From positions 1 to 37,791 of the IMG/VR virus record IMGVR_UViG_3300047470_000134: a stretch of 37,791 nucleotides of DNA. One strand, 5' to 3'. Origin of the DNA: a virus. The notes under the pieces are model-generated. The model saw nothing but the letters and a program-made list of their open reading frames with translations, had not been told where the DNA came from and did not search any database. The position numbers were made by a program, and so were the translations under genes. Below, piece by piece: positions 14,698 through 16,875 of this stretch; the first letter of the stretch is position 1; each line of letters opens with the position of its first letter.

Positions 14698-15137
14698 GAT
14701 GGCTTCCCCTCCAGCGGTACGACACGGACGAGAACACCCGGGGTTTCGCCGAAGCGCTTGCTCAGCGAGACGTTGACCACCTGAACGTCGTCCTTGAACA
14801 CGATGCCGTTGATACCGTCGCAGATGGCTTTGAGCACGTTGTCGATGTCCGGTTTCTTGGTGGGCATCACCAGGCCTTGCAGGGCCTCGGCGGTTTTCTT
14901 CTTGGACCAGGACGCGGCCACGGACACGATGATTTTCATTTCCACCATGACGGGGCCGGCGATCAGCTCGCGGCCGTTCATGGCTTGCTGCGCGGCCATG
15001 GCGATCAGGGTTTCGTAGTTGGCGGTCTTGGTGGGCGTGAACATGCGAGCGTGGCCACCGATGGTGCTGACGCGTGGCCTGCCCTTCCCGATGGCCTCAC
15101 CCGGCACGGTGAATGAAACGGGATTGTGATCAGACAT
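14694..15137 (-). CDS. RusA-like Holliday junction resolvase
   Basis: A 147-residue protein with the family order: FTVPGEAIGKGRPRV near the start, then the KPDIDNVLKAICDGINGIVFKDDVQVV region. Its Asp residues (KPDxDN and KDD) form the metal-binding active site of RusA-type endonucleases that cleave Holliday junctions and branched DNA. ATG at 15137 overlaps the P-like gene stop by eight bases. Its role would be to resolve recombination or replication intermediates before packaging. Confidence 0.9.
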   Translation of the reverse strand: MSDHNPVSFTVPGEAIGKGRPRVSTIGGHARMFTPTKTANYETLIAMAAQQAMNGRELIAGPVMVEMKIIVSVAASWSKKKTAEALQGLVMPTKKPDIDNVLKAICDGINGIVFKDDVQVVNVSLSKRFGETPGVLVRVVPLEGKPS

Positions 15138-15843
15138 CGTCGTCTCTCCGAATGCCCATCTTGGCGAGCAGCAGCTCACGGGCGGACTTGCCGTTGGTGG
15201 GGATGCCCTGGGCGATGACCAATGCTTCGGCTTCCTTGCGGGAGTGTTCGAGCTGGATCTGTTCGCGTGGCCGCATGCTGTCGCTGCCGATGCCGTGAGC
15301 AATTCGCCCTTCAAGCGGTTGGCCGGTCTGTGCACGGCGCGTGACGATGGCGTAGTTTCGTTCGAAGCGTTGGCGCAGGGCCTTGTCGCTGTTCGGTGCG
15401 CTGTGCAGGTCGAACGTGCTGGTGGCTTCTGCGGCAATGCGCACGGCTGGGTGGCTGTACTTCCCTGAACGGGCTTCGTCCCATGCTTGGGCTTCACTCG
15501 GCAGACCAGGCACTTGCAGGCACATGGCACGAAAGACGTTCGCCGGCGGTGGCCAGTCGTATTCGTCTGGTTTGTCGACCAGGGCATTCAAGCCGTTGGC
15601 GATCTGTTGGCCCGTGATGCCCTTGAGCACCGATGCCCACGAATGATCGGGATCAGCTTTCTCGCCGAAACTCGCCGTCCAGCGGTGGCCGTACATCTCG
15701 GTCATTTTCACCCACAGCTTGTCCAGGAGCGTTTGCGACAGCTTCTCGGGCTTGTCGGTCGGCAATGTGCTGCTTGACCCGGTCGACTGCAGATCGAGGA
15801 CCTTGCCGAGCAGGTCGGCTACCGGCGTTGTTGAGTCGTCCAT
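15130..15843 (-). CDS. lambda P-like replication protein (helicase loader)
   Basis: A 237-residue protein with the conserved core of phage P-type loaders: LLDKLWVKMTEMYGHRWTASFG and WASVLKGITGQQIANGLNAL, then WPPPANVFRAMC. Such proteins recruit host DnaB helicase to O-bound origin DNA. The ATG at 15843 has a good GGGAGA site, but using it places 191 bases in overlap with the O-like gene. An internal ATG at 15705 would shorten the overlap but lacks comparable support and would cut just before the conserved core. Confidence 0.82.
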   Translation of the reverse strand: MDDSTTPVADLLGKVLDLQSTGSSSTLPTDKPEKLSQTLLDKLWVKMTEMYGHRWTASFGEKADPDHSWASVLKGITGQQIANGLNALVDKPDEYDWPPPANVFRAMCLQVPGLPSEAQAWDEARSGKYSHPAVRIAAEATSTFDLHSAPNSDKALRQRFERNYAIVTRRAQTGQPLEGRIAHGIGSDSMRPREQIQLEHSRKEAEALVIAQGIPTNGKSARELLLAKMGIRRDDDV

Positions 15844-16564
15844 CGTTGGTTCTCCCGGCAGCCTGCTGGTGACGCAGGTCGCGTTTCAAATGTTGGGCAA
15901 GCGCGTGCTCCCACTTGGCGTGGGTACGGTGTTCGTCGGGGGATGCGATCCAGAAGGATTTGAATTCGAGAAGCTGATCGGCCTGGAAGGTCTGGCCTGC
16001 CATCGCGTTCATGGTCAGCACTGCGCCGAAGGATTTCTCACAAGGGAGCCATGCCTCGGTCATCGAGAATTTGTTGCGGGAATCGAAAATTTCGCTCGCG
16101 AAGAGAAGTGGTGGTGTTTTATCTAATCTCCTCTCCTCTTCTCTGTTGTGACTGGGCGTGACACTGCGTGACGCGTCGTGACCGATATTTTCCTCAGCTT
16201 CTTTTTTCAGGCGCTCACGCTGCTCGCGTTTACGCTGCGCGGCTGATTTGGCGCCGCTTTCAGGGTTTCCGGTGTCTTCCCGCTTTGGTTGTCGCCCTTC
16301 CCATCCGGACAGCTTGTCACCGTCCAACACACGGCCTTGCATTGCCGAAAAAACGGCCTCGACTTGCTCATCTGTCACGTCCAAAGCGGACGCAATGTCC
16401 TCCTTCGTGACTGTCACGTGACCACGCGTGACATTTCGTGACGCATCCACAAGCAGGTGCACATACATCGCCTGCACCAGGGCAATAGGCTGCGAGGAAA
16501 CGCGGGCAATCGTTCGCCACTTCGGGTCGTTGGGCATGTCGTGCCAGAGCCGGAGCCAATCCAT
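15653..16564 (-). CDS. O-like replication initiator
   Basis: A 303-residue protein. The N-terminus (MDWLRLWHDMPNDPKWRTIA) and following residues to about 85 form a winged-helix domain of the type in phage replication initiators; a basic Arg/Lys helix follows (about 105-125). Two Asp-Ala-Ser-Arg repeats (residues 40-53 and 129-140) are encoded by the GTGAC iteron clusters, so the gene contains its own likely origin, as lambda O does. GGAGGAGG precedes the ATG at 16564, two bases after the CII-like stop. The last 63 codons overlap the P-like gene. Confidence 0.78.
   Translation of the reverse strand: MDWLRLWHDMPNDPKWRTIARVSSQPIALVQAMYVHLLVDASRNVTRGHVTVTKEDIASALDVTDEQVEAVFSAMQGRVLDGDKLSGWEGRQPKREDTGNPESGAKSAAQRKREQRERLKKEAEENIGHDASRSVTPSHNREEERRLDKTPPLLFASEIFDSRNKFSMTEAWLPCEKSFGAVLTMNAMAGQTFQADQLLEFKSFWIASPDEHRTHAKWEHALAQHLKRDLRHQQAAGRTNDGRLNNAGSRPARQGPRSAVDRVKQHIADRQAREAVANAPGQAVGENDRDVRPPLDGEFRRES
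16147..16181. repeat. origin iteron cluster 1
   Basis: GTGAC occurs at 16147, 16157, 16167 and 16177, exactly 10 bases apart, so all four face the same side of the helix. AT-rich, pyrimidine-biased stretches flank it (16112-16140 and 16182-16208). Inside the O-like gene, this layout fits a lambda-type replication origin bound by the initiator. Confidence 0.75.
16407..16442. repeat. origin iteron cluster 2
   Basis: GTGAC occurs at 16407, 16418, 16428 and 16438 with 11, 10 and 10 base spacing. The 16415-16422 part is the palindrome TCACGTGA. It is a second copy of the arrangement at 16147 and lies nearer the gene start. Confidence 0.72.
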
Positions 16565-16566
16565 GA

Positions 16567-16875
16567 TCAGTCCTCCTCCAGCTGGTCGACGCTCTGGATG
16601 TGTTCCATCCAACGCTTGGAACCGTGGATGAACATGGCGATGTCTGCCTCGTTGAAGCAGCGCATCTCCTCGGGGACGATCTTCAGGCCCAGTACTGCAA
16701 GGATTTGGCAGAACTGCTCGAACTTCTCAGGCTTCATGCGGCTGATCGTTGCCTCATCGCAACCGACTGCAACCGCGACAGGTCCGTTGCCGATCGATGC
16801 AAGCTTTTGCATGAGAAAGGAGTAGTTCTTGCGGGCCCTTACGGTCTGCTGTTGGTTCAATGGGCTCGTCGACAT
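16567..16875 (-). CDS. CII-like transcriptional activator
   Basis: A 102-residue protein resembling lambda CII in size, order and fold: a helical N-terminus (RARKNYSFLMQKLASIG), then a helix-turn-helix, GPVAVAVGCDEATISRMKPE, followed by KFEQFCQILAVLGLKIVPEE. In lambda CII drives repressor and integrase promoters and so favours lysogeny. It lies directly after cro and before the O-like gene, the lambda order. GAGG precedes the ATG at 16875. Confidence 0.85.
   Translation of the reverse strand: MSTSPLNQQQTVRARKNYSFLMQKLASIGNGPVAVAVGCDEATISRMKPEKFEQFCQILAVLGLKIVPEEMRCFNEADIAMFIHGSKRWMEHIQSVDQLEED

Follow-up and report, generated by a model that had tools for sequence, protein, structure and literature searches.

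Helically phased GTCAC arrays inside a phage replication initiator gene as putative initiator binding sites and a candidate replication origin

In the O-like initiator gene of a phage we detected two clusters of a five-base word, GTCAC on the coding strand, which are repeated once per helical turn and conserved at the DNA level. The window, i.e. the whole stretch of DNA analysed, comprises 37,791 nucleotides (positions 1 to 37,791 of IMG/VR virus record IMGVR_UViG_3300047470_000134). We consider it highly probable that both clusters are binding sites for the initiator encoded by the same gene and that one of them, cluster B, forms the replication origin together with an adjoining AT-rich, purine-biased tract. 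An origin with iterons inside an O-like gene had already been suggested by a sequence-only reading of the window, and it is the interpretation best supported by our results.

The O-like replication initiator gene is located on the minus strand (15653..16564) and was assigned by PHROG 3729 and PHROG 1408, both named 'replication initiation protein', by the Pfam domain DnaT (PF17948) and by an AlphaFold model. Its likeliest start is the ATG at 16564, immediately after the cII-like activator gene (16567..16875, minus strand; PHROG 725 and Pfam Phage_CII), which lies directly upstream. With the P-like helicase loader gene (15130..15843, minus strand; PHROG 109 'P-like helicase loader', E 4e-20) the gene order is cI, cro-like, cII-like, O-like, P-like. 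The 3' end of the O-like gene shares 191 bases (15653-15843) with the P-like gene in a different reading frame, compared with a shared stretch of only 4 bases between O and P of lambda; relatives retain DRDVRPPLDGEFRR, the tail on the O side. The sole Pfam match of the protein is the DnaT domain (residues 182-252 of the longer frame, 46.6 bits against a curated cut-off of 25), and the Pfam scan revealed no Rep domain of the plasmid type. The name O-like, as given in the sequence-only reading, is appropriate with regard to place and layout, but there is no match to the lambda O family (DnaT only in Pfam, and PHROG 3729 and 1408 instead of the O-like PHROGs).

The AlphaFold model, built with 35 relatives, predicts a winged helix at residues ~1-90 (helices 14-23, 27-43, 54-61 and 65-75 plus wing), a basic helix at 108-125, a disordered linker at 133-159 and a DnaT-like domain at ~160-237. 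The fold of this C-terminal helical domain matches DnaT (PDB 4ou6 and 6aeq, probability 1.00).

On the plus strand, cluster A (16407..16442) consists of four GTGAC units starting at 16407, 16418, 16428 and 16438, hence at steps of 11, 10 and 10 bases, and cluster B (16148..16182) of four units at 16148, 16158, 16168 and 16178 at steps of exactly 10. These are clusters 2 and 1 of the sequence-only reading, which had the spacing of both and the start of A right and had placed B one base too early, at 16147. Since the gene is encoded on the minus strand, the coding-strand word is GTCAC; a reverse-complement GTCAC is also found at 16413 within cluster A. The window contains five GTGAC pairs at an exact 10-base step, compared with 0.08 expected from dinucleotide shuffles. 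Along the gene, A is located upstream of B at a separation of ~260 bp. It codes for residues 41-53, in the loop that connects helix 2 of the winged helix to helix 3, and B codes for residues 128-139 at the start of the interdomain linker. According to the model, loop and linker are positions at which the protein sequence can vary freely. The encoded peptides, VDASRNVT and HDASRSVT, indeed have Asp-Ala-Ser-Arg in common, as had been noticed from the sequence, and a duplication of the clusters had been suspected on this ground. As a 10-base period takes in all three reading frames and the tetrapeptide follows from the DNA word itself, the shared peptide does not speak for a duplication.

For the analysis of conservation, relatives were sought by protein similarity alone in IMG/VR and in bacterial genomes, which yielded a non-redundant set of 49 genes, and synonymous codons were permuted within each gene as a null model in which protein and codon usage are held. 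Under this shuffling 12.9 GTCAC pairs at steps of 10 or 11 bases are expected in the 49 relatives, and 247 were observed. The number of units amounts to 201 in region A (80 expected) and 169 in region B (46 expected). Both clusters, each with at least three units, occur at the same two places in 46 of the 49 genes; of the other three, L027 and L366 have different words, and L363 is cut short after residue 114. Both clusters are also present in phage Tritos. The steps between units in these related genes, proposed earlier as a check, are 10 bases in 186 cases and 11 in 53, and a missing unit leaves 20 or 21. The short unit at one-turn spacing and the split into two clusters, regarded as unusual from the window alone, are therefore both real and conserved. 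Synonymous loss of the word in relatives with the protein kept, which the sequence-only reading had named as a refutation, was not the pattern found: the word is kept far beyond the needs of the protein. Judged by this sequence comparison, cluster A too is under selection as DNA, with A alone not significant in some Pseudomonas genes because the loop peptide partly predicts the units. In L007, L011, L014, L015 and L018 the A region has a longer loop with GTGAC, the inverted word, at 9-base in-frame steps, which encode Asn-Val-Thr repeats next to the GTCAC units.

A search of four whole genomes that contain a relative, for matches of three units at 10-base steps, yielded only the two clusters of this gene, and a reversed-word control gave none. 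Among 299 evenly drawn Pseudomonadota genomes, matches outside the gene were present in four, all of them perfect tandem duplications. A phylum-wide draw of 398 genomes contained only three relatives. The distances between A and B are near multiples of ten, but the loss of edge units alone explains this, and a helical phase between the clusters is not claimed.

Directly downstream of B in the coding direction lies the proposed DNA unwinding element (16108..16147, without strand assignment), which is AT-rich with a purine bias on the coding strand and represents the least stable 40 bp of the gene. AT-rich DNA flanking this cluster had been noted before; it is real but modest, with 58% AT at 16100-16149 in comparison to 41% for the whole window. 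In 44 of 46 relatives, the window included, the least stable 40 bp are found at the end of B, with the tract starting no more than 20 bases ahead of the cluster end and no more than 60 bases past it. The first 30 bases of the tract in relatives show 64-75% A+T and 74-82% purine on the coding strand, and the weak tract is less marked in the window than in most of them.

Natural domain swaps indicate which part of the protein reads the word. L428 shares 78% of its C-terminal half with the window protein and has another, YdaU-type N-terminus; its word CGTTG(AACG), written CGTTGAACG, forms two clusters at 171, 182, 193 and at 374, 385. The phage UFJF_PfDIW6, in which a YdaU-type domain is combined with another C-terminus, carries GTTGA at 183, 194 and at 375, 386. 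L027, with 70% of the C-terminal half shared and a different N-terminal domain, has GTAAC at 106, 117 and at 313, 324 plus inverted copies; this case rests on few units (two phased pairs, p 0.006-0.02), and several of the word swaps are likewise thin. In the opposite case, where the N-terminal domain is kept and the C-terminus is unrelated, GTCAC persists, as seen in at least ten relatives. In the ct2G2228 virus the N-terminal domain is 50% identical and the word is CGAACGC in both clusters (p 0.002, synonymous shuffling); a search of the viral collection gave no relatives of this protein. The Pantoea gene L366 uses CGTAG and has an insert in the linker. From these comparisons we conclude that the word goes with the N-terminal domain of the initiator. 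Where two clusters are present, both change together, which suggests one reader for both.

Some further observations were made on these genes. The linker insert of the prophage initiator L366 (3001-4293) resembles, by eye, a GIY-YIG-type nuclease segment; GTCAC is absent, and CGTAG at 10-12 base steps flanks the insert on both sides. The L027-type relatives L415-L421 have ACAGA/CAGAA repeats in the linker at steps of 5-6 and 11 bases, with no clear word. We also looked in the recognition helix and the basic helix for residues that might specify GTCAC and rejected such a code: no residue separates GTCAC users from users of other words. The face that the predicted recognition helix exposes differs from one GTCAC user to the next, and no residue-to-base code emerged.

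Arrays of the same kind are not restricted to the family. When IMG/VR was scanned on the DNA level alone for four GTGAC units spaced 10 bases apart, at least 120 loci were obtained. Among the matches listed, 58 are relatives of the window protein and 28 are non-relatives located in sufficiently long open frames, the coding strand of which reads GTCAC, the remaining loci being short frames, intergenic stretches or tandem repeats. The mean column identity of the 28 frames is only 13%. Twelve of them match PHROG families of replication initiation, primosomal, O-like, replisome-organiser or DnaD-like proteins, and about ten more align at 25-40% with L202, itself one of the PHROG-matched set. The model of L202 predicts a winged helix, which matches other winged-helix proteins in the PDB, a basic helix, a disordered linker carrying the array and a C-terminal domain, in the same order as in the window protein. 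In 16 of the 28 frames the least stable tract is located at the end of the array (3.0 expected). The collection-wide counts were discarded as a measure of enrichment, as a 12-step control also gave at least 120 loci owing to the commonness of in-frame tandem repeats; a reversed word and a 13-step control gave far lower counts of 22 and 21. Spacer identity separates the array cases (0.60) from controls (0.94 and 0.87).

With another word, the annotated replication initiation gene gp38 of the actinophage Jace (L442, 955-1935) has TCAAA at 231, 242, 253, 264, 275 and 297, five of them in a row at 11-base steps. No array was detectable in the wider-family relatives Mwe-JY25 and AZO_p1, and no GTCAC array in lambda O, P22 18, a 15-kb part of D3, K-12 ydaU, Marvin gp71, Fyn8 and Chenonceau. 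A link to the BstA aba element was dismissed, as the aba repeat is a different one, CCCGCC.

Several findings count against a role in initiation, namely the modest weak tract of the window itself, the lack of a detectable array in Mwe-JY25 and AZO_p1, the failure to find a residue-to-base code and the small number of units behind several word swaps. Rival explanations also have to be weighed. The repeats might reflect a functional VTxxHxxSRxVT peptide segment or a recent duplication, the DNA having no role. The Asp-Ala-Ser-Arg encoded by both clusters and the nearly fixed VT, H and S-R in the alignments would fit, yet the phasing is lost on synonymous shuffling (247 versus 12.9 pairs), the peptides fall in a predicted loop and a predicted disordered linker, the corresponding peptides of relatives with other words are quite different, and the spacers between units differ. 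We regard this explanation as very improbable, more so than the following two.

The arrays might instead be operators, at which the initiator or another phage regulator blocks transcription of the O-P operon or controls its own synthesis. Cluster A lies early in the transcribed gene and away from the weak tract, and RNA polymerase would be impeded by occupied arrays. The tie between B and the least stable tract in 44 of 46 relatives is not required of an operator, however, and like arrays are present in the linkers of initiators from other families, which makes this reading unlikely. Equally unlikely is that a host or another phage protein, e.g. a partition or packaging factor, reads GTCAC and that the gene only happens to contain the sites. 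GTCAC arrays in initiators as dissimilar as the 28 frames described above could be due to a host factor in common, but the word changes in both clusters together when the N-terminal domain of the initiator alone is swapped, and no three-unit array was found outside the gene in the four genomes searched.

With the clusters as sites of the gene's own initiator, the following course of initiation is proposed. The N-terminal winged helix would read GTCAC(G) at one site in each helical turn, and the initiator molecules may thereby align head to tail along a single face of the helix. Binding at B would strain and open the adjacent weak tract (~16108-16147), the DnaT-like C-terminal domain would hold the single strand thus exposed, and the host helicase would be brought by the P-like loader from the adjoining gene; the steps after binding are modelled on lambda and DnaT. 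Cluster A may serve as a second array of the same sites, probably joined to B via bound protein and thereby strengthening or limiting initiation. Such pairing through protein is the likeliest role for A because the same word occurs in both clusters, and a brake on transcription would be the main alternative.

Comparison with known systems shows both correspondence and differences. As in the window, the lambda origin in gene O and its versions in Stx phages have repeated sites in the initiator gene at a domain border, an AT-rich tract adjoins the sites, and a helicase loader gene follows the initiator at the same place between immunity and replication. The order of sites, then AT-rich tract, within the initiator gene has been described for ori-lambda (PMC7466680). 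Lambda has one cluster of four 18-base palindromic iterons at steps of 20-24 bases, whereas the window has two clusters of non-palindromic units of 5-6 bases at steps of 10-11; the test used on the relatives found no helically phased array in lambda O. P22 gene 18 likewise has an origin annotated inside an O-like gene, and the same test revealed neither GTCAC nor a helically phased word.

In sequence as well as fold, the C-terminal domain of the window protein matches the single-strand-binding domain of E. coli DnaT (primosomal protein I). DnaT itself functions in replication restart and is not known to have an origin-reading winged helix of this kind. The YdaU/DUF1376 prophage proteins (Rac) take the same operon place as the window gene, and the YdaU-type L428 and UFJF_PfDIW6 each have two clusters of two GTTGA units 11 bases apart, but their N-terminal sequence is unrelated and the word is different. 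The ydaU copies of K-12 and Rac-SA53 have scattered units only; in E. coli K-12 Rac ydaU (L405, 6171-6977) GTTCA recurs at steps of 33 bases and a single GTTGAAC lies where cluster A would be. The K-12 units are perhaps decayed or looser YdaU-type arrays, which would be of interest for the origin of Rac. Plasmid iteron origins of the P1 RepA type resemble the window in their initiator-specific direct repeats, helical register and adjoining AT-rich tract. They differ in unit length and step, with iterons of ~17-22 bases at two-turn steps that are usually located outside the rep gene, and the window protein has no Rep domain. ParR/parC centromeres also have direct repeats of ten bases, arranged in two groups to which a small DNA-binding protein binds, and function in partition and not in replication.

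Origins with initiator sites inside the gene have been known since lambda. Very probably we deal with a lambda-like in-gene origin in a different layout, the differing features being a word of 5-6 bases per turn, two arrays and a word common to distant initiators. In the literature searched, most subscription journals being outside its scope, no description of GTCAC/GTGAC iterons was found, although one may exist. As a wider and tentative proposal, to which we give slightly less than even chances, these elements may constitute a portable replication cassette that is widespread in temperate phages, in which an N-terminal winged helix, two in-gene arrays of its own 5-7 base word with one site per turn, and an unwinding tract are exchanged as a unit between C-terminal halves. 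In this cassette, GTCAC would be the commonest word, used by several families with little similarity, and the arrays would act as a pair.

For the RepA-type mycobacterial phages, Wetzel et al. reported no repeats and guessed that the origin lies inside the gene (PMC7157519). Tests for phased words address such cases, and Jace gp38 does show a phased array, with another word. The sequence rule presented here would locate the replication origin without experiment in many phages for which it is not known, and it names the probable reading domain. Owing to the natural swaps, parts already exist for a direct test of how initiator and site are linked, and the second array poses a question absent from lambda, namely why there are two and whether they cooperate. 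If the cassette proposal is true, a search for arrays in DNA alone would find origin and initiator together.
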